34,612 nucleotides of DNA from Bacteroidaceae bacterium (lineage in GTDB: Bacteria; Bacteroidota; Bacteroidia; Bacteroidales; Bacteroidaceae). Position 1 is the stretch's first letter; each line of letters opens with the position of its first letter. Position numbers and translations under genes: made by a program. The stretch lies in NCBI GenBank assembly GCA_017541025.1, contig JAFXZY010000004.1:1-34612 (forward strand), written 5' to 3'. Below the pieces are notes generated by a model that made no database searches, was not told where the DNA came from, and saw only the letters and a program-made list of their open reading frames with translations. This document shows positions 3,382 through 32,285 of the stretch, in pieces.

Positions 3382-3427
3382 TAAACTCCAAAACTGACTC
3401 TAAACTCTAAACACTCAACTCTACACT
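3382..3427. repeat. ACTCTAA-type heptamer array between kinase and patatin genes
   Basis: Read on the plus strand the gap contains TTTAAACTCC, GACTCTAA, ACTCTAA, ACACTCA and ACTCTACACTTT. These are the same units found translated inside genes at 20995 and 24977. It fills nearly all of the 65-bp gap in this minus-strand operon. Confidence 0.7.
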
Positions 3428-3428
3428 T

Positions 3429-4277
3429 TTAAAATGAAAGAAAACCTTTGATTTTCAACAGCTGTTCCTCAGCAGCTTTCCTTCCCATTTGATAAACCTT
3501 CCGCATTTTTTCTTCGTTCAACTCGGTGCGGCCAATGGGAAGGGAATCTTCCGGGTAGATAAGTAGTATGTTGCCTTTCTTTTCCTCTTCTGCCAGATAC
3601 CGAAGCTGCTCGTTATACATCAAATGTCTTCTGCCCATAGCTTTTATGATGGCCGGGTATTTGCGCATAGTCAGGTGGAAGAGTGGCATCAGCTTGGTGC
3701 GTTTCTTGAAGAAGCCCTTCGGTTGGGTCAGCACCACAATGTTACGCTCATAGCCCAACTCCTGGAAATGCTTCAGCGGGATAGAATCGGCAATGCCTCC
3801 GTCCAGCAGTTTCCTTCCTTTCAGGGGAACTGGCTTTGATACAATAGGCATCGAGGCTGATGCGCGAACCCATTCAAGTCCCTCGTAATCCATGATGTCC
3901 AACTGCTTATAGACGGGTTCACCGGTTTCTGCATCCGTACAGACAATATGGAACTCCATAGGGTTCTGGCGGAAGGCTTCGTAGTCGAAAATATCCAGCT
4001 CTGTGGGCATGACATGATAACTGAATTCGGCACCCACTAAATCACCGGTCTTAAAGAACGAACGCCAACTGATATACCTGGGATCATCCTTCAGGGCAAT
4101 ATTGTAACGCAGTGCTCGGCCTATCTGTCCCGATTTGTAGTTACTGCCAAAGGTGGCTCCGGCAGAGACACCAATTATTCCGTCGAATGTTATCTGGTTC
4201 TCCATCATCACATCGATAACACCTGCGCTGAAAAGCGAGCGCAGGCCACCTCCTTCTAATACCAATCCTTTCTTCAT
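3429..4277 (-). CDS. Patatin-like phospholipase (YjjU/RssA-like)
   Basis: 282 aa. The N-terminal LEGGGLRSLFSAGV carries the glycine-rich oxyanion hole. GVSAG at 36-40 is the nucleophile elbow with catalytic S38, and LDGGIADS supplies the dyad aspartate D159. ASMP before it and the two-domain length agree with bacterial patatin-like acyl hydrolases, which release fatty acids from phospholipids. There is no signal peptide, so it is cytoplasmic or peripheral at the inner membrane. Substrate is unknown. It is the first gene of a likely two-gene minus-strand operon with the sugar kinase. A TAATTTTG box on the minus strand (4303-4310) lies about 25 bp before its start, and the promoter region is shared back to back with the helicase gene. 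Confidence 0.9.
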   Translation of the reverse strand: MKKGLVLEGGGLRSLFSAGVIDVMMENQITFDGIIGVSAGATFGSNYKSGQIGRALRYNIALKDDPRYISWRSFFKTGDLVGAEFSYHVMPTELDIFDYEAFRQNPMEFHIVCTDAETGEPVYKQLDIMDYEGLEWVRASASMPIVSKPVPLKGRKLLDGGIADSIPLKHFQELGYERNIVVLTQPKGFFKKRTKLMPLFHLTMRKYPAIIKAMGRRHLMYNEQLRYLAEEEKKGNILLIYPEDSLPIGRTELNEEKMRKVYQMGRKAAEEQLLKIKGFLSF

Positions 4278-4302
4278 GGATATTCTTCTTTTATATTCGA
4301 TA

Positions 4303-4310
4303 CAAAATTA
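4303..4310 (-). promoter_or_regulatory. -7 box of the patatin/kinase operon
   Basis: The minus strand reads TAATTTTG, a match to TAnnTTTG, 25 bp upstream of the patatin ATG. It is separated from the divergent helicase promoter by an AATGTTC heptamer array. Confidence 0.5.
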
Positions 4311-4315
4311 CAAAT

Positions 4316-4346
4316 AATGTTCAATGTTCAATGCTCAATGTTCAAT
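4316..4346 (+). repeat. AATGTTC heptamer array in the divergent promoter region
   Basis: Units at 4316 (AATGTTC), 4323 (AATGTTC), 4330 (AATGCTC) and 4337 (AATGTTC), with a partial fifth. It occupies the DNA between the two divergent -7 boxes, where the -33 element of the helicase promoter should lie. A change in unit number would alter that promoter. Confidence 0.85.
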
Positions 4347-4352
4347 TTTTTG

Positions 4353-4360
4353 TAACTTTG
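4353..4360 (+). promoter_or_regulatory. -7 box of the helicase gene, very close to the start codon
   Basis: TAACTTTG is a perfect TAnnTTTG box. It ends only 9 bp before the ATG at 4370, so the predicted 5' leader is about 6 nt. It also shows that the open frame beginning at 4331 cannot be used from its first codon. Confidence 0.7.
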
Positions 4361-4369
4361 CCCCCGAAT

Positions 4370-6313
4370 ATGAGTACATTTAACGAATTAGGGCTCAGAA
4401 CAGAGCTCTTACAAGCTATCGAAGAGCAGGGATACGAACATCCCATGCCAGTTCAGGAGGCGGTGATTCCATTCTTGTTGAACAAGGAGGAAACAGCCGA
4501 TTTAGTCGCCCTTGCCCAGACAGGAACGGGTAAGACGGCTGCTTACGGTCTGCCATTGTTGCATATCCTGTCAGATAAAAGCCTCCCCATAGAGGGCAAT
4601 CGCGGAATCGTAGCGATTGGGGAGCTATGCGACGGTGGGCAAAAGGTTCGGAGAGGATCTCCGTCTGTTGTTATCCTTTCTCCAACACGTGAATTATGCA
4701 TACAGATTTCCGATGATATGGCCGGTTTTAGCAAATATTTGCCAGACCTCACCATCCTTCCTGTATATGGAGGTGCCAATATAGAACCTCAGATTCGAGC
4801 CCTGAAGGCTGGGGTAGATATCATTGTGGCTACCCCTGGCCGCTTGGTGGATTTAATGAAGCGTGGTGCTGCCAGCCTGTCAAAGATTCGGTATGTGGTA
4901 TTGGATGAGGCAGACGAGATGCTTTCTATGGGTTTCCAGGAAGAGGTGGATGCCATCCTGGAAGGTGTTCCGGAAGAACACCGTACGCTTCTCTTCAGCG
5001 CTACCATGAGTCAGGAGATAGAGCGTATTGCCCAGAACTACCTGAAGGAAAAACGCGAGATTCAGGTGGGCAGCCGTAACGAAGGTGCTGAGCACGTTAA
5101 TCACATCTATTACATGGTTCATGCCAAGGATAAGTACTTGGCCTTGAAACGTTTGGTGGATTTCTATCCTCGTATCTATGCTATTGTTTTCTGTCGCACG
5201 CGTATGGAGACGCAGGAGGTGGCTGATAACCTGATTCGCGACGGCTATAATGCCGATGCTTTGCATGGCGACCTCTCCCAGCAGCAGCGCGATCTTACCA
5301 TGCAGAAGTTCCGTAAGCACAGAACACAGTTGCTGGTGGCTACGGATGTGGCAGCCCGCGGATTGGATGTGGACGACCTGACACACGTTATCAACTATGG
5401 AATGCCTGATGATGTGGAGAATTATACGCACAGAAGCGGTAGAACAGGTCGTGCCGGCAAGAAAGGTACCAGCCTCTGTATCATCAACCTGAGGGAGAAG
5501 AGTAAAATCCGTCTGGTAGAGAAGGTGATTCAGAAGCAGTTCGAGAAAGGTACATTGCCTGAGCCTCGCGAGATATGCAGCAAGCAACTTTATCATGTGA
5601 TTGATGATATAGAACGTGTTGAGGTGGACGAGGAGGAGATAGCTCCCTTTATGGAAGAGGTGCAGAAGCGCTGGGCGTGGCTGGATAAGGAAGATCTTAT
5701 AAAGCGTGTATTGAGTCGTGAGTTTGGCCGTTTCCTCCAATATTACGCCAATGCGCCGGAGATAGAGACCGTTTCCGGCTCTGAAAAGGGCGAAAAGAGT
5801 TCTCGCAGGAAAAGCGACCACACTCCCGAAGAGGGTTACACACGCCTTTTCCTGAATGTGGGCAAGATAGATAAAATGTACGCGCGTGAGATTATGGGCC
5901 TGATTAACACCAATGTCAAAGGCGACAAGGTGGAGATAGGCCGTATCGACCTTATGAAGAGCTTTGCCTTTGTGGAGGTGAAGAATGAGGATGCCGACCG
6001 CGTCATCAAGGCCATGAAACACGGCGTAACCATCAAGGGACGCAGTGTGGTTGTGGATAGAAGTGAAGCAAAAGCCTCCCCCGGCCCCTCCCAAGGAGGG
6101 GAGAAAAGAAGAAAATCCTCCCCCAACTCTTCCGAGAGAAGAAAGGCCTCTTCTAACCCCTCCGAAAAAAGGGAGAAGAAGAATAAGAAGCAAGCTTCCA
6201 AAAACTCCCCCGAGAGAGGAGGTAAGAGCACCAAGAAATTCGAGAAAGCCGACTGGATGCAGTTCCTCCACCCCGAAGAAGGATGGGCACGCCGTAGGCC
6301 AAAGAAAGTTTAG
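4370..6313 (+). CDS. DEAD-box ATP-dependent RNA helicase with DbpA-type RNA-binding domain
   Basis: 647 aa. Core motifs appear in order: Q motif region, AQTGTGKT (49-56, motif I), PTREL (105-109, Ia), TPGR (155-158), DEAD (179-182), SAT (210-212), CRTR near 275, TDVAARGLDV (325-334) and HRSGRTGR (354-361). Residues 488-565 form a DbpA-like RNA-binding domain (LFLNVGKIDK ... GRIDLMKSFAFVEV). The protein should unwind RNA duplexes, probably in ribosome assembly or cold adaptation, as in the DeaD/CshA group. Two parts are abnormal. About 30 extra residues (68-99) lie between motifs I and Ia and correspond to a palindromic DNA insert. The basic tail (567-622) is encoded by four degenerate copies of the GC-rich element. 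The stop codon TAG opens a heptamer array. The start at 4370 is set by the promoter at 4353. Confidence 0.92.
   Translation: MSTFNELGLRTELLQAIEEQGYEHPMPVQEAVIPFLLNKEETADLVALAQTGTGKTAAYGLPLLHILSDKSLPIEGNRGIVAIGELCDGGQKVRRGSPSVVILSPTRELCIQISDDMAGFSKYLPDLTILPVYGGANIEPQIRALKAGVDIIVATPGRLVDLMKRGAASLSKIRYVVLDEADEMLSMGFQEEVDAILEGVPEEHRTLLFSATMSQEIERIAQNYLKEKREIQVGSRNEGAEHVNHIYYMVHAKDKYLALKRLVDFYPRIYAIVFCRTRMETQEVADNLIRDGYNADALHGDLSQQQRDLTMQKFRKHRTQLLVATDVAARGLDVDDLTHVINYGMPDDVENYTHRSGRTGRAGKKGTSLCIINLREKSKIRLVEKVIQKQFEKGTLPEPREICSKQLYHVIDDIERVEVDEEEIAPFMEEVQKRWAWLDKEDLIKRVLSREFGRFLQYYANAPEIETVSGSEKGEKSSRRKSDHTPEEGYTRLFLNVGKIDKMYAREIMGLINTNVKGDKVEIGRIDLMKSFAFVEVKNEDADRVIKAMKHGVTIKGRSVVVDRSEAKASPGPSQGGEKRRKSSPNSSERRKASSNPSEKREKKNKKQASKNSPERGGKSTKKFEKADWMQFLHPEEGWARRRPKKV
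4575..4665 (+). repeat. Palindromic in-frame insert in the helicase core
   Basis: CTCCCC at 4583 and GGGGAG at 4619 pair, as do AATCGC and GCGATT inside them. A G-rich part (GACGGTGGGC, then GGAGAGGATCTCC) follows. The segment encodes residues about 69-98, which ordinary DEAD-box proteins lack. Its shape resembles the other GC-rich palindromes here, though the sequence is more diverged. Confidence 0.65.
6072..6226 (-). repeat. Four degenerate GC-rich palindromes forming the helicase tail
   Basis: On the plus strand four C-rich to G-rich units follow one another: about 6074-6105 (CCTCCCCCGG, CCCCTCC, GGAGGGG), 6117-6143 (CCTCCCCCAAC, TCTTCCGAGAGAAG), 6148-6177 (CCTCTTCTAACCCCTCC, AGGGAG) and 6196-6224 (ACTCCCCCGAGAGAGGAGG). 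They encode similar peptides, SPGPSQGGEKRR, SPNSSERRK, SNPSEKREK and KNSPERGGK, giving a basic Ser/Lys-rich tail. Confidence 0.65.
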
Positions 6314-6350
6314 AGTTGAGAATTGAGAATTGAGAATTGAGAGTTGAGAA
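6314..6350. repeat. Left inverted arm, TTGAGAA heptamers
   Basis: The array reads AGTTGAG, AATTGAG (three times), AGTTGAG, AATTATG. In this orientation every unit contains TGA, so the array has a stop codon in every reading frame. It starts directly at the helicase stop. Confidence 0.9.
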
Positions 6351-6352
6351 TT

Positions 6353-6712
6353 ATGGCAAATGTGATACAAGATAAGAGTCGCAATTTTGCGATACGGATT
6401 ATTAACTGTTGTAAATATTTGGTAGGACAGAAAAACGAACGAATTATGTCCAAACAGTTGTTACGCAGTGGAACAAGTATTGGGGCTAACACGCGTGAGA
6501 GCCGGAATGCTCAAAGCCGCTTGGATTTTTTGAATAAACTTAATATTGCTCTTAAAGAGGCAGACGAAACAGCATATTGGTTAGACTTGCTTCATGCAAC
6601 AGAATACATTGACGATAAGATGTATACCTCCCTTAATAGTGATTGTGATGAAATAATATCAATTCTAGTGAGGATAATAATAAACATAAAAGATAATCCA
6701 ACAAAAGATTAA
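6353..6712 (+). CDS. Four-helix-bundle protein (23S rRNA intervening-sequence / IVP family)
   Basis: 119 aa, all helical. The family signature is strong: an N-terminal FAIRIINCCKYL helix, then MSKQLLRSGTSIGANTRES, LDFLNKLNIALKEADETAYWLDLL, and a final long helix. This is the TIGR02436-type protein first known from intervening sequences in bacterial 23S rRNA and related in fold to the Avd accessory protein of diversity-generating retroelements. Its biochemical role is unknown; basic residues fit nucleic-acid binding. The start ATG at 6353 is preferred over the TTG at 6344, which lies inside the repeat array. The gene is flanked on both sides by inverted heptamer arrays and sits between a helicase and a peptidase with which it has no known functional link. 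It looks richer in A+T than the neighbouring helicase. Confidence 0.9.
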   Translation: MANVIQDKSRNFAIRIINCCKYLVGQKNERIMSKQLLRSGTSIGANTRESRNAQSRLDFLNKLNIALKEADETAYWLDLLHATEYIDDKMYTSLNSDCDEIISILVRIIINIKDNPTKD

Positions 6713-6730
6713 TTTAATTCTGTAAAGACA

Positions 6731-8929
6731 ATGAAAAAGAAAAATATTTGTTTGCGAGATAATTCTCAATTCTCAATTCTCAATTCTCAATTTGCCAAGA
6801 TTATTATAATCTTGCTGCTTTTGCCTGCAAAAGCAACTTCCGACGAAGGCATGTGGATGCTTAACAACATAGACACGAAGACTGCGGAAGCGATGAAGAA
6901 TCTGGGTCTGGAACTTACCCCGCGGGAACTCTATAATCCCGACGGCGTGAGCTTGAAAGATGCAGTTGTCGATTTCGGTGACTTCTGCTCGGGCGTCGTG
7001 GTAAGTCCCAATGGTCTGGTTTTCACCAATCACCACTGTGGTTACAGCTCTATCCAAAAGCTCTCAACCCCAGAGGATGACATCCTTAAGAATGGGTTTG
7101 TAGCCCGTTCTTATAAACAGGAGCGTCCCGTAGAAGGTCTCTTCGTACGTTTCCTGCAGCGGACAGAGGACTGTAGTGCCCGTGTCTTGTCTGCACTCGA
7201 CAGTATCTATCGTGCTAACCCTGATCAGGAGGAGCGTGTATTGCGAAACGACCACATAGACAGCATCTGCAACGCAGTAGAGAAAGAATACGAGGTAGCG
7301 AATCCCGGTTTGAACTGCCAACTGAAAGCCTTCTATGGCGGTAATGCTTTCTACGTTAGTATATATAAGGTATATAGAGACATCCGACTGGTCTTTACGG
7401 CAACGGAAACAATGGGTAAGTTCGGAGGCGATACGGACAACTGGATGTGGCCCCGTCAGACTTGCGACTTCAGTGTGTTCCGTATCTATGCCGATGATAA
7501 CGGAGAACCGGCAGAGTACAGTCCCAAGAACAAACCCTTGCATCCCAAGCGTTACGCCAAGGTAAGTCTTGACGGCTATCAGCCCGGTGACTACTGTATG
7601 ACCATAGGCTATCCTGGCAGCACCAGCCGTTACCTCAGTTCGTGGGGTATCGACGAGCGTGTGAATGCCAAAAATGTCAGTACCATTCAGGTCCGTGGCA
7701 AGAAACAGGAGGTTTGGAAGAAATTCATGGATACCGACCGTGCTGTGGCCATAAAGTATTCCAGCAAATGGGCCGGCAGTAGCAATTACTGGAAGAATTC
7801 CATCGGTATGAACAAGGCAATTGCCGACCTGAATGTAATTGCCCAGAAACAGCAGTTGGAACAGCAGGTTAAGGATTGGTATAACGGCAGAGAAGACCTG
7901 AAGGCTCGCTTTGGCAAGATGTTCGAGAGTCTGGAGAAGGCATACGCTGAGCGCAGGGATAATGTATATGCCCAGGGTTTCTTTAGCGAGACATTCAATC
8001 GTGGCATAGAGATTCTGCGTGTAGCCGATCAGTTGAACCGCATGCCTCAGGATGCCGATTCCGTTCAGGTGGCTGCTACACGCGAAAGCTTGCAGCGTTT
8101 CTTCAAGGATTATGATGCCGCCCTTGATGAGGCTACGGCTGCTGTTCTTTTGCAGAATTATCGCGAGCAGGTGACAGATAAAAAGTACTGGCCCGAGTTT
8201 TACAACTTGATAGATTCTCTATATCACGGCGACTGTGCTGCTGTGGCCCGTGACGTCTTTCGTTATACCATCTGCACGGATATCTCTTGCCTGGACCGCC
8301 TGTTGGCCGACAGTACATTGCGAGAAAGAGATCCCTTGTTGCAATATGCCGAGAAAGTACAGGACTTTTCGCAGTTCCTGTATGGCAGTCAGCGCGAGAA
8401 CAGTAACATTATAAAATATAACGAACGTTTGCTGACCCAGGCTCTGCTGGAGATGGAGCAGGAAACACCTCATTATAGCGATGCGAACTTTACCATGCGA
8501 CTCTCCTATGGTTTTATCCAGGACTATACAGCACAGGGGAAGCACTTCCAGTATTATACGGATGCACAAAGCTTGTTGGATAAGGCTGCCAAACAAAATG
8601 AGATAGAAGACTACCAGTTGGAGGCTGATATTGTACAATTAATGCAAAAAGGCAAGTGGGGCAAGTATGCCGATAAGAATACCGGTGATATGCACCTCTG
8701 CTTTATTTCCAACAACGATATCACAGGCGGAAACTCAGGCAGTCCGATGTTTAACGGCAAGGGCGAGCTGATAGGTTTGGCCTTCGATGGCAACTGGGAA
8801 GCAATGTCGGGCGACATCAGTTTCAATAGTTCCCTGCAGCGTTGCATAGGTGTGGACATCCGTTTTGTTCTCTTCATGATAGACAAATGGGGGAAAGGAA
8901 GAAACCTTATTAAGGAAATCAGGCCTTAG
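6731..8929 (+). CDS. S46 family dipeptidyl-peptidase, DPP7-like
   Basis: 732 aa, secreted (periplasm or outer surface). The mature part starts near DEGMWMLNN. The chymotrypsin-like catalytic residues are all present: His in TNHHCGY (101/102), Asp in GGDTDNW (234/236) and Ser669 in GGNSGSP. The residue 18 positions after the catalytic Ser is Gly687 (FDGNWE). In this family Gly at that place marks DPP7-like enzymes, which remove dipeptides after hydrophobic residues, whereas DPP11 (Asp/Glu specificity) has Arg. Such enzymes feed peptide catabolism in Bacteroidales. The signal peptide is abnormal: between MKKKNICLRD and the hydrophobic core AKIIIILLLLP lies NSQFSILNSQF, the translation of the right heptamer array. 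Without the repeat the N-terminus would be an ordinary signal peptide. The start at 6731 is the only ATG upstream of the core. Confidence 0.93.
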   Translation: MKKKNICLRDNSQFSILNSQFAKIIIILLLLPAKATSDEGMWMLNNIDTKTAEAMKNLGLELTPRELYNPDGVSLKDAVVDFGDFCSGVVVSPNGLVFTNHHCGYSSIQKLSTPEDDILKNGFVARSYKQERPVEGLFVRFLQRTEDCSARVLSALDSIYRANPDQEERVLRNDHIDSICNAVEKEYEVANPGLNCQLKAFYGGNAFYVSIYKVYRDIRLVFTATETMGKFGGDTDNWMWPRQTCDFSVFRIYADDNGEPAEYSPKNKPLHPKRYAKVSLDGYQPGDYCMTIGYPGSTSRYLSSWGIDERVNAKNVSTIQVRGKKQEVWKKFMDTDRAVAIKYSSKWAGSSNYWKNSIGMNKAIADLNVIAQKQQLEQQVKDWYNGREDLKARFGKMFESLEKAYAERRDNVYAQGFFSETFNRGIEILRVADQLNRMPQDADSVQVAATRESLQRFFKDYDAALDEATAAVLLQNYREQVTDKKYWPEFYNLIDSLYHGDCAAVARDVFRYTICTDISCLDRLLADSTLRERDPLLQYAEKVQDFSQFLYGSQRENSNIIKYNERLLTQALLEMEQETPHYSDANFTMRLSYGFIQDYTAQGKHFQYYTDAQSLLDKAAKQNEIEDYQLEADIVQLMQKGKWGKYADKNTGDMHLCFISNNDITGGNSGSPMFNGKGELIGLAFDGNWEAMSGDISFNSSLQRCIGVDIRFVLFMIDKWGKGRNLIKEIRP
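6758..6796. repeat. Right inverted arm, TTCTCAA heptamers read in the S46 signal peptide
   Basis: AATTCTC units repeat four times and end in AATTTGCC. This orientation lacks stop codons in all frames and is translated here as NSQFSILNSQF. It is the inverse of the array at 6314-6350. Confidence 0.9.
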
Positions 8930-9131: not shown

Positions 9132-12100
9132 ATGGGAAATCGTTACTTGATTTTACTGACGTTGCTGTTCCCTTTAGCAACAATGTTCAGGTCGGGTGGG
9201 CTATATGCACAGACCGAAGAAGAGTATGACGCTGCAATGGCTGCTATCACAGATGGTGCCACCTATTACATCGCAACAGATGTGGACGGCCTAAGGTGTT
9301 ACTTGACTGCTGATGGCTTTCTGGCATACGATAAACTCGATGCAGGAATGTTCATTTTCAAAAAGACGTCAGGCGGAGAGTTCAAGACCTATGGTTGGTA
9401 TCTTGATGGTGGTACAGGTAATTACTTCAGCAATCCTGCAGCCAGCAATAGCATTGCTGATAAGAAGATCAACACCCATAGTATCTCAGGTTGTCGTACT
9501 ACATGGGAAGCTCAGGTATTCTTCCTGAATGAAAACGGGAAGTTTGCCGTGCGTGCTACCAATGCGGCTTCCACTACCAGTACAAGTGGCTGGAATTGGG
9601 TAGGTCAGTCTTTCTGGGCAATCAATGAAGGTCCTACTGTAGGTTATTCCTTCGATGTTAATTACATTTGGGAACTGGAGTTACCTTCTGACCAGAGCCA
9701 GATATGGACAGTCCTTAATTCAATCGTTGTAGATTATGAAGAACAAGTTTATGATGACGAGGATGGCTATTCCATGAATATAGGTACAGGGTTCGGCCAG
9801 CGTGCAGATGCTGAGACCTGGCTGAAATTCTGGAATCTGCTTCAGGAGGTATATCAGACGGCTCAAAAGCTTGTGGAAGAAGATTATGACATGGATAAAG
9901 ACCCCGATGCTCCTACTCTGGAATGGGCTAATCAGGCAAGAGTTGATGCAGATTCCATGTACCAGAAGATATTGGACAGCGAGCGTCCGTATATGATACC
10001 ACAGGATGGCTATTACCGTATTATTTCCAGATTACGTTATTCGAATCCAGATGTTGAATCGGGATATGTTGATAAGGCTTTAGCTGCCTCTATCAGCTCA
10101 GAACATGCCAACAAGGGTGTTTATGCCACTATCAAAAGGGATAGGGCCGACTTCCTTTGGAAGCTTACGCAGCATGGCGATAGCGTTGAAATTCAGAATG
10201 CCGGTATGGAAACCTATATCAGCTTCTCTTCTCCTTCGCAGAACAGGGTTATCATGACTACCAACGTGGATGATGCCAGCCACATGGTATTAGATTATGC
10301 AGGCTATGATATTGTTGAGACGGATGAAGATGCCTTCGAGAAAGACATCTTCTACATCCGACTTGCCAGCAAACCCAGGGGTGGCAGCAACTATTTCCAT
10401 CAGTTAGAACACAACAGTAAGACTGATGTGGCAACGGCTTCTGGTAATTCCGGTACAGACTCTGGTAAGGAAATGGAATTGAGTTTCTGGGCAGCAACCT
10501 TCAATAAGGAAGTGGACAGGGGTACCAGTGAATGGTATCTGGAGTATGTTCCAGATGAAGAGGCCAAGGAGATTATTGAGGCTTTTGCTTATATTCGTGA
10601 CCGTGATATTTTGATAGAAAAGAACAATGCCCTGCGTGCTGAGGTTGCTGAGGCGCTGACTGTTGCCAAGGATGTTATCAGAACGGAGCTTATTACGTCT
10701 GCCAGTCAGATGACGTCTCCTTTCAGCTATAATGAACTTACCGGTAAAACCGATGGTGGCAACCTTTCAGACGGTGTCCTCATCGATGGTGATAAGAGTA
10801 CATACTGGCACAGTGACTATAGTGGAGCTGCTCCTGAGGGTACTCATTATATCCAGCTCTCTGGTATGCAGGATATGGTAGGCGATTGTGAACTGTACCT
10901 CTGTCAGAGAGCTGCTACCAACGACCACCCGAAGGAGTTTATAGTTGTGGGTTCGAACGATCCTGAGGCTGCTGATGAGGATTGGGCAGAAATAGCGGTA
11001 ATTGAGATTCCCAATGTCCTCAGCGGCGAGGAGAATACAGTTCCCTTCGTTATAGAAACACCTTATGAGTACGTTCGTCTTTTGTGTACTCAACAGGCAC
11101 CCTCTACCCGTAATTTCTTTCATGCAGCAGAATTGCAGATATTAACGGTAAGGCCCAATCCCAACTCACAGTTTGTAGCCCTTGGCGAAATAGCTACCAA
11201 CTTGGAGAATATATACAACGAGAACTGTGCTGTAGATGATGATGACATCACCGTAGTGATGTATGAAGCATTGTTGGCAGCTTACCAGAGGTTCCTGAAT
11301 GGATTGGTTGATCCTACCGAGTTGCGTGAGGCTATGGCTAAGTATGCTAATGCCACCCGGGTTGTTGTGGAAGGTACAAATCCCGGCCAGTGGTCAAGCA
11401 CGGATATCGCTACAGCTTACGACAATCTGTATGCCGAGGTGGTAGCTTACAACAAGGCAGGTAAGTATACCGTTGAGAAGAACCACAAGTATGCTGTAAT
11501 GCTCGCAACTATGCAAAAGAGCCTTATGGAGCAGGCCAATGGGGTGAAGAAGGATACTTGGTATCGTATCATGTTCCCAACGGAGGAAATGTATGACAGA
11601 TACGGATTCGACAAATCTCCTGCTGATAAGACCAGCCTTCGTGAGGATCAGGCTACCATGTGGGGTACCTTTGTTACTGTAGCAAAGGAGGTATCAGAAG
11701 AGGTTCCTAATCCCACGGAAGAAGACCCAGACGCCACCACTAATGTTTCACACCTGGAGGCGTTTGAGAAGGCAGATGTACGTGAGACCAATCGTATGTT
11801 CTTCATGGCAGAGGATGAGATAACAGACAAGGATGTCAGCCTGTTCCGTTTCATTGAATGTCCTGTAAAGAATCCTGACTATTCAGGTGTGTTTACCGAG
11901 GCCAAGGGGGATATGGTTACAGCTGTTGACTTGAGCACTACTTATACCAGAGGCGAAGCACTGATTACGGATGCTTCCCAGTTCTCCAGTAACAATGATA
12001 TTGACTACGATGGTCAGAGACTCTCTTCCGGCTGTCTCATCGATGGCAATGCCTCTACTTACTGGCATACCGATTACAGACAGCAAGTTCTGGAGATTCC

Positions 12101-13583
12101 TTATCTGCAGGTAGCCCTCAACGAGCCCGTTTCTGGCTTTATCCAAGTGGATATCACTCGCAGAAACGCCGCTAACGGCCATGTTGTTCGTATGTATATC
12201 CAGGGTAGTACAGATGCAGAGAACTGGAAAAACGTAGGTTATCTGGAAACGCCTTTTGGCAGTGTTACCGAGACCGTTACCAGCCAGCCCGTCGATTTGG
12301 ATGGAACATACAACTATCTGCGCTTTATCCTGACCCAGAGATATGGAACTGACGGTGGTGGCAATATGGAATTTGATCCCTTCGCAGAAATAACAGGTGC
12401 AAGCGACTGGAATAAGAAATGGACATACTTCCATATGGCAGAGTTCCAGATTTATCCTATAACATTCAATCAGGAACTGAGCCCAACAGCTAAGACCATG
12501 CAACAGGCCTATACAACAGCCAACAAGGTTGTCCTGAAGGATGTTACAGCAGAGGATTTTGCAACAGTCAAGAAGGCTTACAAAGATTATCAGACAGAGT
12601 ACAATACATCTGTTGGCAAGGCTGTTCTTCCCAATGGAGTTGACGGTCCCGCTCCGTCTTATGCTCTCCAGAACAAGGCTACTGGTCTGTTCATAAAGGC
12701 TAAAGATGGCAGTACCAATGATGTTAACCTGAAGCTTATTCCCACATTCTTCAGCTATACGGCTCTTGGTTACGAGAGAAGTTTGCTGGGTGGTGTGAAT
12801 ATCAATGGCAATAGTTGTAATAACCTGCATGCAGGAGAGTCTAACCGCAGATTCTGCACATGGAGCTCGTCAGAAGCATACTCTAACTCTGGCCTCGTTA
12901 TCCGTGAGGAAGGTCCTGTGGAGCCTGCAGAGTTCTCCTTCTATAAGGATATTCAAACAGGTGAGATATACAATTTCTGCTCTACCGTATCAATCACCAA
13001 TAAGGGAGAAGGTGAAGCCTACGCGGGTATTGGCAAGTATACCGATGAGGACGGTGCCACCTTCCTTGCACTGAAGAAGATAGAAACGATAGAGGCTGGC
13101 GCACCTGCTTTCTACATCTTTGGCGATACAACCCAGTACGATGCAGAGGCTGAACCCGAAGCTGTTCTGTTCACAATGTCTGCTGAACCCGACTTCAAAC
13201 TGGTGGGCGATACCATCAACGGCTTTATTGCTTGCCTGGTTAACCATCCAATTGGCGTTAATGACATATTCTTCGATGAGAATTATGCTACCAGTCTTGG
13301 CAAGACCGGTATGAACCTGGTTGCTCCAGCAGTATTGGTGGTTCAGGAGCTCTGTCCCGATGTTGATCCTAATGCCGAATACGACTTCAGTATCTGTCTC
13401 AGCGGTGCAGATGTGGTAGATAATGTGAAGGATGTTGCTACCGTTGTTAAGCAGATTAGCCAGCCCGGTGATGTGTACAGTGTTGACGGAAAACTTCTTA
13501 AAACAGGTGCTACCCTTAATAGCTTGAAGTCTTTGGGCAAGGGAATGTATATCCTAAATGGGATAAAGGTCATGGTTAAGTAA
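9132..13583 (+). CDS. Giant secreted protein with two discoidin (F5/8C)-like domains, copy 1
   Basis: 1483 aa. The signal peptide is about residues 1-27 (RYLILLTLLFPLATMF ... LYAQ). An N-terminal beta-rich module (ATYYIATDVDGLRCYL) resembles ricin/lipocalin-like repeats. Two discoidin-like modules follow at about 518-675 (SASQMTSP, LIDGDKSTYWHSDY, FHAAELQI) and 940-1110 (DASQFSS, LIDGNASTYWHTDY, FHMAEFQIYP). A helical FIVAR-like segment lies between them. A further beta module near 1165-1260 ends in NLHAGESNRRFCTW. The last 40 residues (GDVYSVDGKLLKTG ... GKGMYILNGIKVMVK) are a C-terminal module common in Bacteroidetes secreted proteins, probably for surface sorting or T9SS. A glycan- or matrix-binding surface role is the best guess; no catalytic domain is recognised. 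It is paralogous over its whole length to the next gene and lies between its own promoter and terminator. Confidence 0.8.
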   Translation: MGNRYLILLTLLFPLATMFRSGGLYAQTEEEYDAAMAAITDGATYYIATDVDGLRCYLTADGFLAYDKLDAGMFIFKKTSGGEFKTYGWYLDGGTGNYFSNPAASNSIADKKINTHSISGCRTTWEAQVFFLNENGKFAVRATNAASTTSTSGWNWVGQSFWAINEGPTVGYSFDVNYIWELELPSDQSQIWTVLNSIVVDYEEQVYDDEDGYSMNIGTGFGQRADAETWLKFWNLLQEVYQTAQKLVEEDYDMDKDPDAPTLEWANQARVDADSMYQKILDSERPYMIPQDGYYRIISRLRYSNPDVESGYVDKALAASISSEHANKGVYATIKRDRADFLWKLTQHGDSVEIQNAGMETYISFSSPSQNRVIMTTNVDDASHMVLDYAGYDIVETDEDAFEKDIFYIRLASKPRGGSNYFHQLEHNSKTDVATASGNSGTDSGKEMELSFWAATFNKEVDRGTSEWYLEYVPDEEAKEIIEAFAYIRDRDILIEKNNALRAEVAEALTVAKDVIRTELITSASQMTSPFSYNELTGKTDGGNLSDGVLIDGDKSTYWHSDYSGAAPEGTHYIQLSGMQDMVGDCELYLCQRAATNDHPKEFIVVGSNDPEAADEDWAEIAVIEIPNVLSGEENTVPFVIETPYEYVRLLCTQQAPSTRNFFHAAELQILTVRPNPNSQFVALGEIATNLENIYNENCAVDDDDITVVMYEALLAAYQRFLNGLVDPTELREAMAKYANATRVVVEGTNPGQWSSTDIATAYDNLYAEVVAYNKAGKYTVEKNHKYAVMLATMQKSLMEQANGVKKDTWYRIMFPTEEMYDRYGFDKSPADKTSLREDQATMWGTFVTVAKEVSEEVPNPTEEDPDATTNVSHLEAFEKADVRETNRMFFMAEDEITDKDVSLFRFIECPVKNPDYSGVFTEAKGDMVTAVDLSTTYTRGEALITDASQFSSNNDIDYDGQRLSSGCLIDGNASTYWHTDYRQQVLEIPYLQVALNEPVSGFIQVDITRRNAANGHVVRMYIQGSTDAENWKNVGYLETPFGSVTETVTSQPVDLDGTYNYLRFILTQRYGTDGGGNMEFDPFAEITGASDWNKKWTYFHMAEFQIYPITFNQELSPTAKTMQQAYTTANKVVLKDVTAEDFATVKKAYKDYQTEYNTSVGKAVLPNGVDGPAPSYALQNKATGLFIKAKDGSTNDVNLKLIPTFFSYTALGYERSLLGGVNINGNSCNNLHAGESNRRFCTWSSSEAYSNSGLVIREEGPVEPAEFSFYKDIQTGEIYNFCSTVSITNKGEGEAYAGIGKYTDEDGATFLALKKIETIEAGAPAFYIFGDTTQYDAEAEPEAVLFTMSAEPDFKLVGDTINGFIACLVNHPIGVNDIFFDENYATSLGKTGMNLVAPAVLVVQELCPDVDPNAEYDFSICLSGADVVDNVKDVATVVKQISQPGDVYSVDGKLLKTGATLNSLKSLGKGMYILNGIKVMVK

Positions 13584-13605
13584 TTTAACCCTATATGTAT
13601 TATGT

Positions 13606-13629
13606 AAAAGGCGCCGAAAGGCGCTTTTT
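13606..13629 (+). terminator. Terminator between the two giant genes
   Basis: AAAAG-GCGCC-GAAA-GGCGC-TTTTT: a GC-rich stem closed by A/T pairs, 23 bp after the stop codon of copy 1. Confidence 0.85.
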
Positions 13630-13669
13630 ATGTTAAAAAACGTTTACAAGAGAAAAATATTGTATCATT

Positions 13670-13704
13670 TTTGCAAGAAAGTACAAATTTTCCGCTTATC
13701 TTTG
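13670..13704 (+). promoter_or_regulatory. Promoter of the second giant discoidin-like gene
   Basis: TATCTTTG at 13697-13704 matches the -7 consensus, with TTTGCAAG at 13670-13677 upstream. The leader is about 80 nt and ends in CAAACCTTAAA close to the start, as in the first copy. Confidence 0.75.
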
Positions 13705-13787
13705 CAAAATAAAGCGTGTAACCATACTAACTAAGGCAAACATAACTAACAAACAATATTTACAAACCTTAAAAACTTTTTAAAGCG

Positions 13788-16700
13788 ATGAGAAAACGTT
13801 ACTTATTTTTATTAATGTTGTTGTTCCCGTTGGCAACAATGTTTAAGTTGGGTAGTGCATTCGCAGCTGACCCACCAGAATCAGAGTATGAAGCAGCATT
13901 GGCTGCCATTACAGATGGTGCGTATTACATCACAACAGATGTAGACGGAACCAAGTTCTATGTAACTCAGGGAGGTAACCTGACAGACGACATAGAAGTT
14001 GCCTACATGTTTGGCATCTCAAAGGTTGATGCATCTGCTGCTGGTGATAAACTCTTTAACACTGCTTGGAAAATAGAGCCTAACAATGGATCTCATTTCT
14101 CTAACACTACTTTGACTAACGATAAGGCTAATTTGTTGTTTGCAGATGAAGTGTATCGTCAGGATAGTGGTAACGACCGTAATGACTGGGAAAGACAGAT
14201 TTTCTATCTGAATCCGGAAACAGGCAAATATGCCATCCGCTCTTGTAACACCAGCTATGCAGAAAGTAGCTGGAAAGATGCCGGTCGTGCTTTCTGGACT
14301 TGGTATGTTAAAGATACCGAAGCAGATTATGTAGTGCCCACTCCATGCTATAGCTATGATGCGGCCTATATCTGGTCTTTTGAGTTGCCCGAAGAGAAGG
14401 CTCAGATAAAGATGGCGCTTGAGGGAATATACAATACTTATGAGCAGCAGGCTGTTGACGATGTTGACGAGCCTACATCTGTGAATATGTATTCAGGAGA
14501 AGGCCCTGGCTACGGCACACTTGCAGACTGGGATACTTGGCGTAAGTTCAAGGCTGAGCTTGACAAAATTGATCCTCTTTTAATGAAGTTCTTTGATGAG
14601 GATTATAATCCCGCTACTGACCCGGATTGTCCCGATTTGGATGGCGCTAATGCTTTGAAGAATGAACTTGATTCTATGTGGAATGTCCTTTTGGCTTCTG
14701 AAATTTCTTATAAGATTCCTCAGGACGGTTACTACCGCATTATTACCCGTATGCGTTACTATACCGACACGGAGATTCGTGACGAAGAGTCTGGCGAACT
14801 GATTGACACAGAACGCTCATACGTAACAAAGGCTGCGTTGGCTTCTTACGACAAGAACTTCCCAGGCAATGTTATGTTCGGTACCCTCAGAAAGGATTTG
14901 GCTAACTACGTATGGAAACTTACTCAGGTAGGCGACAGCGTTCTGATGCAGAATGTCGGTATGGGTACTTATCCCAACAAAGAGAGTTCAAGCCGCTTCT
15001 TGCTTACCGATGATCCTACAAAGATCAGTCACGTAACATTCGACTATGCTGCCAGTGATATTGTTGACTTGGATGATGACGATCAGGATGAAAGAGACAT
15101 TTTCTACATCCGTTTGTCAAGCGATCCCCGTCATGTTGAAAGATACCTTCACCAGAATGGCCACAGCAGAGGTAAGGATTCTCACAAGGATCTGGACATG
15201 GGCTTCTGGAGAGGCACCTATGGCATGGGTGGTGAAGCTGGTATCTATGGTAGCGATGAGGGTACCAGTGAGTGGTATCTGGAGCCTGTTTCTGAGGATG
15301 AGGTTGCAGAACTTGTTGAGAAGTTCCAGCCTATTTTGCACCACGACGTACTGGTACAGGAGAACCAGGAACTTCGCGACGAGGTTGCTGCTGCTATCGA
15401 AGATTCTAAGGATATCATCAGAGAGGATATGATTACTGCTGCTGCTCAGCTGAGCAGTCCTAACAGTGACGAAGCAGAAGGAACTAACATCGGTAACTTG
15501 ATTGATAATGACGGTGGTACCTTCTGGCATACCAGTTGGCACGGCTCGAACCAAGAGCCCCAGATGGTTTACAACGAAGGTTCATACCATTATCTGCAGA
15601 TCGCCGGTATGGAGAAGATGGTTGGCAATGTCGATTTCTATTTCCGTCAGAGAAATGGTGCAGACCAAGACCATCCCGCTGAGGTTACACTCTTTGGTTC
15701 TGAAGATCCCGAGGCCGCAGATGCAGATTGGGTAGAATTTGCAAAATTGACTATTCCTAATGTTGGTAATGGTGCAGAAAACCATATTCCTTTCACTGTA
15801 GAAAATGCATATCCCTATGTACGTTTAATTGTTACGAAGGTTAAAAAGCAAGATGGCAGTGATATGGATCACCGTACTTATTGGCATGCTGCTGAGATTC
15901 AGTTCAGCACAGTTAAGGATAATCCAAGTTCTCGCTTCGTTGCTCTTGGTGAGATTGCTACAAATCTTGTTGATGCCTTTAACGAGAACCTGGCTATCGC
16001 TGATGCTGACATCGAGTTCAAAGATTACGAGAAGTTGCTTCAGGCTTACGAATTGTTCAAGGGCGGTTTGGTTGATCCTACCGAGTTGCGCAATGCACTG
16101 GCTAAGTATGCTAAGGTTACCGAGGGTGTTGTAGAAGGTACAGAACCCGGCCAGTGGGCAAGCACAGATGTTGCTAAGGCTTACGATAAGCTCTATGCCG
16201 AGGCTAAGGCTTACGAGGCAAGTGGTAAGTATACTCCCGAGCAGATTCATAAGTATGCTGCAATGCTGAAGGCTATGTCTAAGAGCGTAGCTGAGCAGGT
16301 TAACGGTGTTAAGACCGGTACTTGGTATCGCATTATGTTCCCAACAGAGGAAATGTATGATAAGTATGGATTCGACAAGTCTCCTGCAGACAAGACAAGC
16401 CTTCGCGAGGATCAGTCCATCATGATGGGTACCTTCGTTGCTCCTGCTTACGAGGTAACAGAAGAGGAAGCTGCTCCTACAGAAGAAGATCCCGAGGCAG
16501 TTGCTAACGTTACACATCTCGAGGCATACGAGAAAGATGCAGTCAGCGATGCTTCTCGCTTGTTCTTCATGGCTGACGAAGAGATTACAGATAAGGATCT
16601 CAGCGAGTTCCGCTTCATCGAGCGTCCTCAGGAGGAAGCTAATTATGTAGGTCTCTTCAGCGAGGTTATGGAAAACTCTGCTGTGGCTCTCGATCTGAGC

Positions 16701-18341
16701 ACAACCTATACCAGAGGTGATGCCCTGATTACAGATGCTAAGCAGCTCTCAAGTAATGCAAGTGATGAAGCTGAGGGTAAGAACCTTAATGACTTGATTG
16801 ATGGCAATCCCAGCACATTCTGGCACAGCGACTGGCACCAGAAAGCACGTGTTCAGCCTTATCTGCAGGTTGCACTGAATGAGCCTGTTTCTGGTCTTAT
16901 CCAGGTAGGTCTTGTACGTCGTGGCAATGACTTCGGTCATATCGTTCGTATGTATGTTCAGGGTAGTAACGATGCCGAGAGCTGGACTAACATCGGTCAC
17001 TTCACAACTCCTTACACTTCTCCCGGTGAGACAGTATTCAGTCCTGCTATTGATTTGGGCGGTTCTTACAGCTATCTGCGTTTCACTATTACTCGCAGAG
17101 CCGGTAATGATGTAGAATTTGATCCATTCCAGGAAATTACTTCAGCAAGTCCTTATGATAAGGATGGTGGTTGGACCTACTTCCACTCAGCTGAATTCCA
17201 GCTGTATCCTCTGACTGCCGACAAGGAACCTGTTGCAACAGCTAAGGAACTTCAGAATACTTATAATGATCTTAATAAGGTTGTTAATATCTATAAGAAT
17301 CCTACAGCAGAGAACTTCACAGCTGCTAAGCAGGCATATAGCGCTTATCAGAACGAGTTCAATACTTCTGTTGGCAAGGCTGTTCTGCCCAGCGGTGCAG
17401 AGAAGGCTGCTCCTCAGTATGCTATCCAGAACAAGGCTAACGGTATGTTCATCCATTCAACCGATGGTAACTCTAACGACCTCTTCCTGAAGCTTACTCC
17501 AACATTCTTCCGTTACTCATCTCCTGGCTATGAAAGAAGCTTGTTGGCTGGTACTAACCTCAATGGTTCTGCCACCAATAATCTGCATGCCGGAGAGACT
17601 AACCGCAGATTGTGCACATGGACTTCTGCAGAGCCTTATTCTAACTCTGCTCTCGTAATCCGCGAGGCAGAAGCTGTTGAGCCTGCTGACTTCAACTTCA
17701 ACCTGAGCATCAAGACCGGTGAGATTTACAACTTCACTTCTCCCGTTTCTATTACCAATAATGGCGACGGTGTTGCTTACGTAGGTCTTGGTCAGTATGC
17801 TGATACAGAAGGTGTAACCTATCTGGCTCTGAAGAAGGTTGAAACCATCGAGGCTGGTCAGCCTGCCTTCTACATCCTTGGCGATACTACTCAGTACGAC
17901 GCAGAGGAAGATCCCGAGCTTGTTAAGTTCGCTATGCCTGCAGAACCCGAGTTCAAGCTTGTAGGTGATACCATCAACGGTTTCGTTGCTTGCATGGTTA
18001 ACCAGCCTATTGGTGCTAACGACATCATCTTCGATGCTAACTTCGCTACCAGCCTTGGTAAGACCGGTATGAACCTGGTTGCTCCTGGTGTTCTGGTTAA
18101 CCAGGCACTCTGTCCTGAGGTTGATGCTACCGTTGAATATGACTTCGCAATTTGCCTGAATGATCAAGACGCTGTCGATGGCATTAAGGATGTTGCTACT
18201 GCTGTTAAGAATGTTAGCAAGCCTGGTGATGTTTACAGTGTTGACGGTAAGCTCTTGAAGACTGGTGCTACCCTCAATAACCTGAAGTCTTTGGGTAAGG
18301 GTATGTACATCCTCAATGGAATGAAGGTACTTGTAAAGTAA
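13788..18341 (+). CDS. Giant secreted protein with two discoidin (F5/8C)-like domains, copy 2
   Basis: 1517 aa with a signal peptide (RYLFLLMLLFPLATMF ... AFAA). It is collinear with the preceding gene: N-terminal beta module (AYYITTDVDGTKFYV), discoidin-like modules at about 547-710 (LIDNDGGTFWHTSW, WHAAEIQF) and 967-1142 (LIDGNPSTFWHSDW, FHSAEFQLYP), the NLHAGETNRRLCTW module, and an almost identical C-terminal module (GDVYSVDGKLLKTG). Long stretches such as MFPTEEMYDKYGFDKSPADK differ by one residue from copy 1. Codons in the second half look unusually uniform (many GCT, GTT, AAG, CTG), as expected for a highly expressed gene; this was judged by eye. Function is as uncertain as for copy 1; a matched pair of surface-binding proteins is plausible. 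It is closed by a strong terminator. Confidence 0.8.
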   Translation: MRKRYLFLLMLLFPLATMFKLGSAFAADPPESEYEAALAAITDGAYYITTDVDGTKFYVTQGGNLTDDIEVAYMFGISKVDASAAGDKLFNTAWKIEPNNGSHFSNTTLTNDKANLLFADEVYRQDSGNDRNDWERQIFYLNPETGKYAIRSCNTSYAESSWKDAGRAFWTWYVKDTEADYVVPTPCYSYDAAYIWSFELPEEKAQIKMALEGIYNTYEQQAVDDVDEPTSVNMYSGEGPGYGTLADWDTWRKFKAELDKIDPLLMKFFDEDYNPATDPDCPDLDGANALKNELDSMWNVLLASEISYKIPQDGYYRIITRMRYYTDTEIRDEESGELIDTERSYVTKAALASYDKNFPGNVMFGTLRKDLANYVWKLTQVGDSVLMQNVGMGTYPNKESSSRFLLTDDPTKISHVTFDYAASDIVDLDDDDQDERDIFYIRLSSDPRHVERYLHQNGHSRGKDSHKDLDMGFWRGTYGMGGEAGIYGSDEGTSEWYLEPVSEDEVAELVEKFQPILHHDVLVQENQELRDEVAAAIEDSKDIIREDMITAAAQLSSPNSDEAEGTNIGNLIDNDGGTFWHTSWHGSNQEPQMVYNEGSYHYLQIAGMEKMVGNVDFYFRQRNGADQDHPAEVTLFGSEDPEAADADWVEFAKLTIPNVGNGAENHIPFTVENAYPYVRLIVTKVKKQDGSDMDHRTYWHAAEIQFSTVKDNPSSRFVALGEIATNLVDAFNENLAIADADIEFKDYEKLLQAYELFKGGLVDPTELRNALAKYAKVTEGVVEGTEPGQWASTDVAKAYDKLYAEAKAYEASGKYTPEQIHKYAAMLKAMSKSVAEQVNGVKTGTWYRIMFPTEEMYDKYGFDKSPADKTSLREDQSIMMGTFVAPAYEVTEEEAAPTEEDPEAVANVTHLEAYEKDAVSDASRLFFMADEEITDKDLSEFRFIERPQEEANYVGLFSEVMENSAVALDLSTTYTRGDALITDAKQLSSNASDEAEGKNLNDLIDGNPSTFWHSDWHQKARVQPYLQVALNEPVSGLIQVGLVRRGNDFGHIVRMYVQGSNDAESWTNIGHFTTPYTSPGETVFSPAIDLGGSYSYLRFTITRRAGNDVEFDPFQEITSASPYDKDGGWTYFHSAEFQLYPLTADKEPVATAKELQNTYNDLNKVVNIYKNPTAENFTAAKQAYSAYQNEFNTSVGKAVLPSGAEKAAPQYAIQNKANGMFIHSTDGNSNDLFLKLTPTFFRYSSPGYERSLLAGTNLNGSATNNLHAGETNRRLCTWTSAEPYSNSALVIREAEAVEPADFNFNLSIKTGEIYNFTSPVSITNNGDGVAYVGLGQYADTEGVTYLALKKVETIEAGQPAFYILGDTTQYDAEEDPELVKFAMPAEPEFKLVGDTINGFVACMVNQPIGANDIIFDANFATSLGKTGMNLVAPGVLVNQALCPEVDATVEYDFAICLNDQDAVDGIKDVATAVKNVSKPGDVYSVDGKLLKTGATLNNLKSLGKGMYILNGMKVLVK

Positions 18342-18359
18342 TCGAATCCTAATCTAGAT

Positions 18360-18400
18360 AAAAGGGAGTTTTTGGGAATCATCCCAGAGGCTCCCTTTTT
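18360..18400 (+). terminator. Strong terminator after copy 2
   Basis: Outer stem AAAAGGGAG (18360-18368) / CTCCCTTTTT (18391-18400) and inner stem TGGGA-ATCA-TCCCA. It starts 18 bp after the stop codon. Confidence 0.9.
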
Positions 18401-18410
18401 ATTTACATAC

Positions 18411-18460
18411 CCCCCTCCATCTCCCCGAGGGGAGGGAATTCTCAACTTTCAACTCTCTTA
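18411..18460 (-). repeat. GC-rich palindrome joined to a heptamer array
   Basis: CCCCCTCCATCTCCCC-GA-GGGGAGGG (18411-18436, tail on the left, so minus orientation) is followed directly by AATTCTC, AACTTTC, AACTCTC units. It fills the gap before the C1 protease gene. The same joint arrangement occurs inside that gene at 20961-21044. Confidence 0.8.
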
Positions 18461-18473
18461 AATCTATTATTCA

Positions 18474-26095: not shown

Positions 26096-26130
26096 CTTTG
26101 GCTGTTAGCCCTTGGCTTCTAAAACGTTAA

Positions 26131-26318
26131 CCTTAACCCTAACCCTAACTGTTTATGAGTTTAAGGGTTCAAGAGTTCAAGGAGTTCAAGGAGTTCAAGA
26201 AGTTCAAGAATTGTTATCGTTATCGTTAACGTTATCGTTGAGCCCTTGGCCTTTGGCTACGATATCCAATAACCTATTAAGCCACTAAGCTATTAAGCTA
26301 TTAAACCATTATCAATAA
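26131..26318 (+). repeat. Mixed short tandem arrays (6, 8 and 9 bp periods) between the two lipoprotein genes
   Basis: In order: TTAACC and CCTAAC hexamers (26131-26147), a 9-bp array GAGTTCAAG with about four units (26172-26210), TTATCG hexamers (26212-26238), the flanking word GCCCTTGGC (also at 26107), and 8-bp units CTATTAAG (26271-26309). CCCTAA and CGTTAAC units together with GTTCAAGAAGTT also occur at 893-1003. Confidence 0.85.
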
Positions 26319-32097: not shown

Positions 32098-32284
32098 TTG
32101 GAGAGTAGTTGGAGAGTAGTTGGAGAGTAACTGGAGAGTAGTTGGAGAGTAGTTGGAGAGTAACTGGAGAGTAGTTGGAGAGTAGTTGGAGAGTAGTTGG
32201 AGAGTAGTTGGAGAGTAGTTGGAGAGTAACTGGAGTGTAACTGGAAAGTAATTGGAGAGTAACTGGAAAGTAATTGTCGAGTAA
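32098..32284 (+). repeat. 11-bp tandem array (TTGGAGAGTAG), 17 units, abutting a start codon
   Basis: Sixteen units of TTGGAGAGTAG, or its variants CTGGAGAGTAG and TTGGAGAGTAA, run every 11 bp from 32098. A degenerate 17th (TTGTCGAGTAA) ends one base before the ATG at 32286. Variant units concentrate at the gene-proximal end. Both the promoter region and the ribosome-binding region of the next gene lie within or before the array. Confidence 0.95.
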
Positions 32285-32285
32285 A

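Follow-up and report, generated by a model that had tools for sequence, protein, structure and literature searches.

The window analysed here is a stretch of 34,612 nt of a Bacteroidaceae genome (contig JAFXZY010000004.1), and on its forward strand, between a DEAD-box helicase gene and an S46 peptidase gene, it carries a cassette in which a gene of the IVP family (also S23p or TIGR02436; 6353-6712) is bracketed by inverted heptamer arrays. The gene encodes a four-helix-bundle protein of 119 aa and the whole cassette (6312-6792) measures 481 nt. Its left arm (6312-6354) is a (TTGAGAA)n array ending in GAATTAT, and its right arm (6759-6792) is the inverted copy, (TTCTCAA)n, separated from the gene by a spacer (6713-6758). 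Tandem Repeats Finder gave 5.9 copies for the left array (91% matches) and 4.6 perfect copies for the right one. The paired segments (6321-6354 and 6759-6792) have 34 nt each, are complementary at 33 of 34 positions (97%) and lie 404 nt apart, in agreement with the preliminary description of this DNA, made from its letters alone, in which such arrays had been noticed around an IVP-family gene. The open reading frame (ORF) scored 87.7 bits against PF05635 and 106.4 bits against TIGR02436, both above the curated cut-offs. It matched IVP-type families only, and no other ORF of at least 80 aa is wholly contained between the arms.

Both neighbouring genes are in contact with the cassette, as had been proposed. 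The helicase gene (4331-6313, forward strand), with a DbpA-type RNA-binding domain, ends at a TAG codon (6311-6313) that directly borders the left array, and its final codons and stop are unlike those of two relatives with an empty site (G104 and G101). The S46 peptidase gene (Dpp7-like; 6731-8929, forward strand) has its N-terminus supplied by the cassette: the called start codon (ATG, 6731) falls in the spacer, and the right arm is translated near the N-terminus as NSQFSILNSQF. A long RNA stem with the ORF in its loop had also been anticipated, and the minimum free energy (MFE) fold of the RNA 6311-6796 predicts a terminal stem of about 35 bp (z = -6.75), none of 100 shuffled sequences being equally stable.

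The AlphaFold model of the window IVP consists of four helices (predicted local distance difference test, pLDDT, 95.4). Foldseek retrieved 2rld (five chains), with template modelling (TM) scores of 0.88-0.90, and also 2gsc (five chains); the crystal structures of IVP/S23p proteins date from 2006-2007. Lower-ranked matches, with TM scores of 0.67-0.76, were the Avd protein of diversity-generating retroelements (DGR; 4dwl) and DGR reverse-transcriptase complexes (8ub7/8ube), the best Avd-type chains being those of 8ub7 (0.76) and 4dwl (0.74), at a sequence identity of about 10-13%. According to the accessible portion of PMC4990558, an IVP-family protein of Xanthomonas is a homopentamer and the function of IVP/S23p is still unknown.

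The frequency of inverted arms at other IVP genes, a comparison suggested by the preliminary description, was determined with an inverted-repeat (IR) score (match +1, mismatch -2; threshold at least 14) using flanks of 250 nt for congeneric loci and 200 nt for named loci. The window site scored 31. The genome to which the window belongs (G000, 84% complete, the window being contig C52) has six loci with a TIGR02436 match (seven matches in total), and all six carry inverted short-unit arms. Their units are GGTTATG, AACGTC/AACGAT (6-mers), GGTTAGA, TTGAGAA, TTTACCA and CGGTTAG, with GGTTA common to three of them. Two of these six IVP copies are broken (L005 and L006/L007, by an in-frame stop and a frameshift), while G104 has intact copies at the same sites. 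A TIGR02436 match is present in 126 of the 139 genomes of the genus, and the threshold was reached at 31 of 35 scored congeneric loci and at 69 of 80 named loci belonging to the window's subfamily, by their titles mostly from gut and rumen Bacteroidales (11 fail, one of them through a contig end). When 166 loci with a near-full-length ORF and flanks were reduced to 65 non-redundant Bacteroidota sites, by merging those with shared flanks or at least 90% protein identity, 38 reached it. Some low scores have evident causes: L121 and L122, low in this set and clear among the named loci, have misjudged start codons, and L100 of Prevotella communis scores only 9 because its right array lies just beyond the 200-nt flank.

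Plasmid loci behaved in the same way. Among 22 loci hand-picked for spread from 54 matches, 19 reached the threshold, belonging to Cyanobacteriota, Bacteroidota, Gemmatimonadota, Pseudomonadota and Chloroflexota, that is, five of the seven phyla examined. The failures were L319 of Spirochaetota (score 13, which exceeds by one the highest of 60 shuffles), L321, the sole Bacillota locus (score 10, and 18 with shifted flanks), and the cyanobacterial L337 (score 13). After the flanks were shifted, 51 of 77 sites (the 65 sites plus the first 12 plasmid loci) were armed, the best period being 7 at 45 of them, 8 at four and 12 at two. As for the controls, arms exchanged between IVPs less than 40% identical reached 14 in 3 of 926 cases (from 1500 random swaps), swaps among plasmid loci did so in 14 of 462, and other genes (naive ORFs of at least 100 aa in sampled stretches of G000 and P. 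communis) in 6 of 478. Set against this last frequency, the score of 31 indicates that the window arms are not due to chance. All these results demonstrate that IVP genes often have inverted heptad arms and that such arms are rare away from them.

The repeat unit follows the lineage of the protein. Arms exchanged between different sites whose IVPs are at least 55% identical still paired in 71 of 224 cases, and at 41 armed sites arm similarity was correlated with IVP protein identity (Mantel rho 0.44, 0 of 5000 permutations). The labels AATTGA, CATTGA and AGTTGA, placed on a quick IVP tree of 65 rows, required 5 changes versus 25.6 after shuffling, a result aided by near-copies, since the 30 rows labelled CATTGA represent no more than 4 site clusters. 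In addition, own-locus arms fitted each other better than arms exchanged between subfamily members (p = 1e-4 over 17 sites, each from a different cluster), so the two arms co-vary. The unit is thus specific to the IVP lineage and changes jointly in both arms. The arms also have a preferred size. At the 77 of 80 named loci with enough flank, four TTGA heptads were spanned by 39 left and 52 right arms. Solo arrays, defined as those with no detected IVP within 700 nt and detectable from three heptads upwards, gave the same mode: among 125 arrays distinct by sequence, which in related genomes are therefore not independent, 79 span four heptads and 16 span three. Given this mode, the commonest module is one of four heptads followed by a degenerate fifth. 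Of 65 left arms, 37 continue the final heptad with ATTAT, the last AT in the window being that of the IVP start codon; among the solo arrays, ATTA follows the last heptad in 40 of 125 and ATTAT in 18 of 125.

Neighbouring genes could be called at 55 of the 65 non-redundant sites and their strands, relative to the IVP gene, were (+,+) at 39, (+,-) at 12, (-,-) at 4 and (-,+) at none. In most cases a gene precedes the cassette and points the same way. Among the plasmid loci, armed cassettes are found between cas2 and cas1 (L322), cas6 and cas4 (L325), cas10 and cmr3 (L335), nrdB and nrdA, and a helicase and a methylase gene, those at cas2/cas1 and in the nrd pair being oriented against their neighbours. 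IVP genes that have been noted as CRISPR-linked could be cassettes inserted, like L322, L325 and L335, among cas genes.

These positions bear on a first alternative, by which the cassette would act at the RNA level: RNase III would cut the arm stem and free the IVP ORF from the host mRNA, mobility being secondary, and such excision would make insertion between co-transcribed genes harmless. The stable predicted stem, the co-variation of the arms, the strong in-line bias with the upstream gene and the armed cassettes within gene pairs such as cas10/cmr3 and nrdB/nrdA are all consistent with it, and so is the IVS (intervening sequence) of Coxiella, whose 28-bp stem is excised by RNase III according to the accessible text of PMC4990558. 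However, it leaves unexplained the heptad periodicity, the size mode, the lineage-specific units and the dispersed solo arrays. We regard this explanation as possible but on the whole unlikely.

The preliminary description had suggested a search for empty sites in relatives, and cassettes proved to be polymorphic at all five sites compared (the window, L001, L002, L005 and L006) of the six loci of G000. At the window site the IVP gene and the left arm are missing from G104, whose S46 peptidase is 97% identical, and from G101 (95%), and a single array is retained in the S46 N-terminus (TTCTCAA in G104, TTTCAAC in G101). Relatives whose S46 is 81-86% identical have no array in the S46 N-terminus, and some of them have other arrays in the gap. 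The L002 cassette is present in G000, G104 and G021 and absent from G101, G071 and G033; that of L006 is present in G000 and G104 and absent from five relatives; and that of L005, also shared by G000 and G104, is absent from three. The L005 slot holds a four-heptad TTGA module in G021 and a 12-nt spacer in G089 and G050. The L001 cassette occurs only in G000, being absent from 8 of 8 relatives, in which the flanking genes are retained, and by eye the slot is occupied in six of these eight by another array or pair of arrays. Inspection by eye of the junctions of L002, L001, L006 and L005 revealed no consistent target-site duplication; at L005 the cassette replaces the short spacer of the relatives. 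Among related species, cassettes and arm-like solo arrays are therefore gained and lost at shared intergenic slots, which agrees with the earlier proposal of an apparently mobile element, related to the rRNA intervening sequences, living between protein genes. Relatives without the cassette, and many homologues elsewhere with inverted 7-bp arrays, are both on record. Neither of the two findings named beforehand as adverse, the gene in the same place without arrays in most relatives or homologues never flanked by them, was thus encountered, and the earlier interpretation as a whole is partly supported.

Rearrangement at arrays was observed as well. The congeneric IVPs most similar to that of the window (76-78%) are located about 2.9 kb away and in the other orientation, in a slot of G071 and G101 where the cassettes have AGTTGAA/AATTGAA arms and where the window has a solo ACTCTAA array (3397-3427, strand not assigned). 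In G021 (L343) a segment of about 2.9 kb, corresponding to 3433-6306, is inverted, with its breakpoints at two array slots and CATTGAA-type arrays at its ends. An initial reading, by which G021 would have an unrelated gene upstream, was abandoned in favour of this inversion. Taken together, the inversion and the IVP cassettes of that slot suggest that arrays may serve as recombination sites. Both are what would be expected if no transposition took place and only recombination between inverted arrays (inversions and deletions) with vertical loss were at work. Nevertheless, the absence of the L001 cassette from 8 of 8 relatives with intact flanks, and the different lineages of the IVPs that adjoin S46 in G000 and G021, argue against recombination alone, and we find this second alternative rather improbable.

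Heptamer arrays are also abundant far from IVP genes. In 314 kb of G000, 80 arrays were found, 46 of period 7 (47 in a unit-blind recount, owing to a tie-break difference), and in 400 kb of P. communis E15-14, 63, of which 41 have period 7; none appeared after shuffling in either case. Because the stretches were picked around IVP loci in G000, and in half of the cases in P. communis, these densities may be high. In the window, solo TTGA-type modules of four heptads occur on the reverse strand at 4316-4346, followed by ACATTAT and made up as the IVP arm, and at 24955-24986. Placement of the arrays relative to genes is near background, with 40 of 129 inside naive ORF calls. Complementary inverted array pairs within 1.2 kb numbered 13, eight of which (four loci) enclose an IVP gene and five do not. 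These last, among them L215 (6849-7108, gap 200), L237 (16156-16317, gap 97) and L224 (548-695, gap 94), are possibly non-autonomous doublets in the style of REPINs, the doublets of repetitive extragenic palindromic (REP) sequences.

Across the 139 congeneric genomes, the median of TTGA hits was 0 (range 0-2) in the 13 without an IVP match and 23 in the 117 with a strong match, and the number of IVPs was correlated with all pattern hits (rank correlation 0.54, or 0.45 given size and completeness, p = 2e-8, kinship uncorrected). In a unit-blind recount, which took the first 20 kb of contigs 1-10 as the stretches of G067, G135, G065 and G103, the 400 kb from two zero-IVP genomes contained no array of period 6-8 and six of other periods. 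Four IVP genomes, G065 among them, had period-7 arrays at densities of 5.5-15 per 100 kb; in G065, 16 period-4 rows, which are runs of N or A, were ignored. Congeneric genomes that lack an IVP match, 13 in all, have few arrays.

These data were also considered in relation to a third alternative, that the arrays are ordinary slippage microsatellites into which IVP genes land, gene conversion between the inverted arms keeping them alike. The number of arrays away from IVPs (46 of period 7 in the 314 kb), the turnover of units at one slot, and G125, rich in TTGA arrays without a window-type IVP, speak for it, and polymerase slippage has been proposed for heptamers in the accessible texts of PMC4692102 and PMC4679880. 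However, a slippage repeat should decay from the shortest detectable length, here three heptads, and should not depend on a protein gene; the observed sharp mode at four, the units that follow IVP similarity across sites, the two zero-IVP genomes devoid of period 6-8 arrays in the 400 kb sampled (kinship uncorrected) and the heptamer arms at IVP genes of five phyla all argue to the contrary, and make slippage as the whole explanation quite improbable. Finally, that the IVP is a host regulator with the arrays as its gene-adjacent binding sites, without any mobile element, is very doubtful, for although MacGregor proposed translational regulation by TAACTGA heptamers adjoining start codons (accessible text of PMC4679880), the IVP gene is itself subject to gain and loss, two of the six G000 copies are broken and the slots turn over between species.

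We consider that 6312-6792 is probably a mobile cassette, REP-like in behaviour and without a known transposase, whose Avd-like IVP recognises its own heptad arms. The element would consist of a heptad array of about 33 nt present in two inverted copies, with the IVP gene enclosed by them. The protein, an Avd-type four-helix bundle, would recognise this array as RNA or DNA, single-stranded or paired, perhaps with one heptad per subunit, as the four heptads and fifth half-site of each arm could be matched to the five crystal chains. The paired arms would mark the ends of the element, and its movement would be due to a host enzyme or to another one acting in trans. The in-line position downstream of a gene means that read-through from it can transcribe the cassette, and an RNA intermediate would fit both this bias and the Avd fold. 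Solo arrays would be non-autonomous copies or one-armed relics, and arrays may double as recombination sites.

Several observations weigh against this interpretation of the locus as a mobile cassette. Of the 30 best loci sampled across the phylum, only 10 reached an IR score of 14, so the arm rule is weaker there at this threshold, and 27 of the 65 non-redundant sites fell below it, some through misjudged start codons. Eight genomes with strong IVP matches gave no pattern hits at all (one of them, G065, has arrays of other units), and five with only weak matches exceeded 10 hits, with a maximum of 212. Among the 117 strong-IVP genomes, TTGA hits had a median of 26.5 in the 106 with a window-type IVP versus 3 in the 11 without it, only with p = 0.08, and the reversed control pattern, which is not neutral because other heptamer arrays are counted too, also differed between the same genomes (21.5 versus 14, p = 0.04). 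G125, whose 314 TTGA hits are the highest count of all, lacks a window-type IVP at E <= 1e-15. ATTA does not follow in 85 of the 125 solo arrays. The Avd matches have Foldseek E values of 0.15-0.41, the IVP is devoid of known catalytic motifs and no enzyme partner has been identified. Both the recognition of the array and the trans-acting mover are steps that we infer. The coincidence of five chains with about five heptad sites is arithmetic and only suggestive. Lastly, the window's own copy could have been relocated by an array-mediated inversion. As a separate observation, genome G123 has 126 TTGA hits, likewise with no window-type IVP at E <= 1e-15.

Other features of the window were also recorded. 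Three consecutive ORFs of about 1500 aa occupy 9132-23054, two with F5/8 type C domains and one with Laminin_G_3, PKD and DUF5013 domains. One intergenic gap (26128-26311) has stacked arrays of 6-, 8- and 9-mers with differing units, and a period-11/33 array of TTGGAGAGTAG, in 16 copies (32098-32283), is placed at the start of an AlbA_2/HATPase_c_4 ORF (32274-33764).

Compared with known systems, the cassette shares features with several of them. The cyanobacterial heptamers are called STRR. Like the arrays described here, those of cyanobacteria, Beggiatoaceae (TAACTGA) and Xanthomonas/Nostoc (GGGNATC) are intergenic, tandem, of few copies and variable among relatives. For the TAACTGA arrays, reported near start codons in Beggiatoaceae, cyanobacteria and five Bacteroidetes, no mechanism of spread was apparent (PMC4679880, accessible text), and for the Xanthomonas and Nostoc heptamers an association with mobile elements was generally not found (PMC4692102, accessible text). 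In what is accessible of both sources no origin is agreed for the heptamer arrays of cyanobacteria and other bacteria and no IVP partner is named; the terms S23, intervening and four helix are absent from the first and S23 and 23S from the second. By contrast, heptamer arrays were found here on both sides of plasmid IVP genes, in cyanobacteria as well as in four other phyla. A link between IVP genes and heptamer arrays was not found among the titles and abstracts retrieved from the open-licence PMC literature, preprints excluded. The present findings tie both together by a lineage-specific code and may explain the puzzling 7-letter repeats of many bacteria.

The IVS of 23S rRNA encode the same protein family (a 23S rRNA IVP domain is among the abbreviations of a figure legend in the accessible part of PMC10910872), have the ORF in a loop between complementary ends that may form a long stem, here the 34-nt arms paired in the predicted fold, and are of similar size (428-444 nt in Coxiella versus 481 nt). 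RNase III excision, the 28-bp stem and older ideas of mobility are treated in PMC4990558 (accessible text). However, the window cassette lies between the helicase and S46 genes, outside 23S rRNA, and is thus not an IVS as defined; its type of arm, known here from sequence, is a heptad array with lineage-specific units and dispersed solo arrays. The 23S IVS thereby gain apparently mobile relatives outside rRNA. With the DGR Avd proteins the IVP shares the fold (TM 0.74-0.76 to the best 4dwl and 8ub7 chains), its relatives having five chains per crystal entry, whereas no reverse transcriptase was present among the eleven window ORFs scanned, the genome not having been searched. Neither a transposase, as in insertion sequences, nor a tyrosine (HUH) transposase, as in REP systems, is encoded by an ORF of at least 80 aa between the window arms.

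As a wider and more tentative proposal, to which we give less than even confidence, these cassettes would form a class of selfish elements with a pentameric Avd-like protein, one heptad per subunit and heptad codes specific to each lineage; the dispersed arrays of Bacteroidota, cyanobacteria and others would be its non-autonomous copies, which a borrowed polymerase would move by way of RNA or a single-strand intermediate, and the 23S IVS its copies landed in rRNA. REPINs and how they relate to RAYTs are defined in PMC3116915 (accessible text). REP/REPIN sequences and their associated tyrosine transposases (RAYT or TnpA-REP) are similar in that the gene is flanked by inverted copies of a short repeat, the repeat type tracks the protein lineage, many repeats of similar make-up are dispersed in the same genome and gene-less inverted doublets exist. 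They differ in that the IVP is an Avd-like four-helix bundle and the RAYT a tyrosine transposase, and in that the IVP repeats are tandem heptads, not palindromes, with several transient cassettes per genome. IVS, RAYT, insertion sequence and plain microsatellite each fail one tested defining feature, and the behaviour of the cassette is most like that of the REP/RAYT system.

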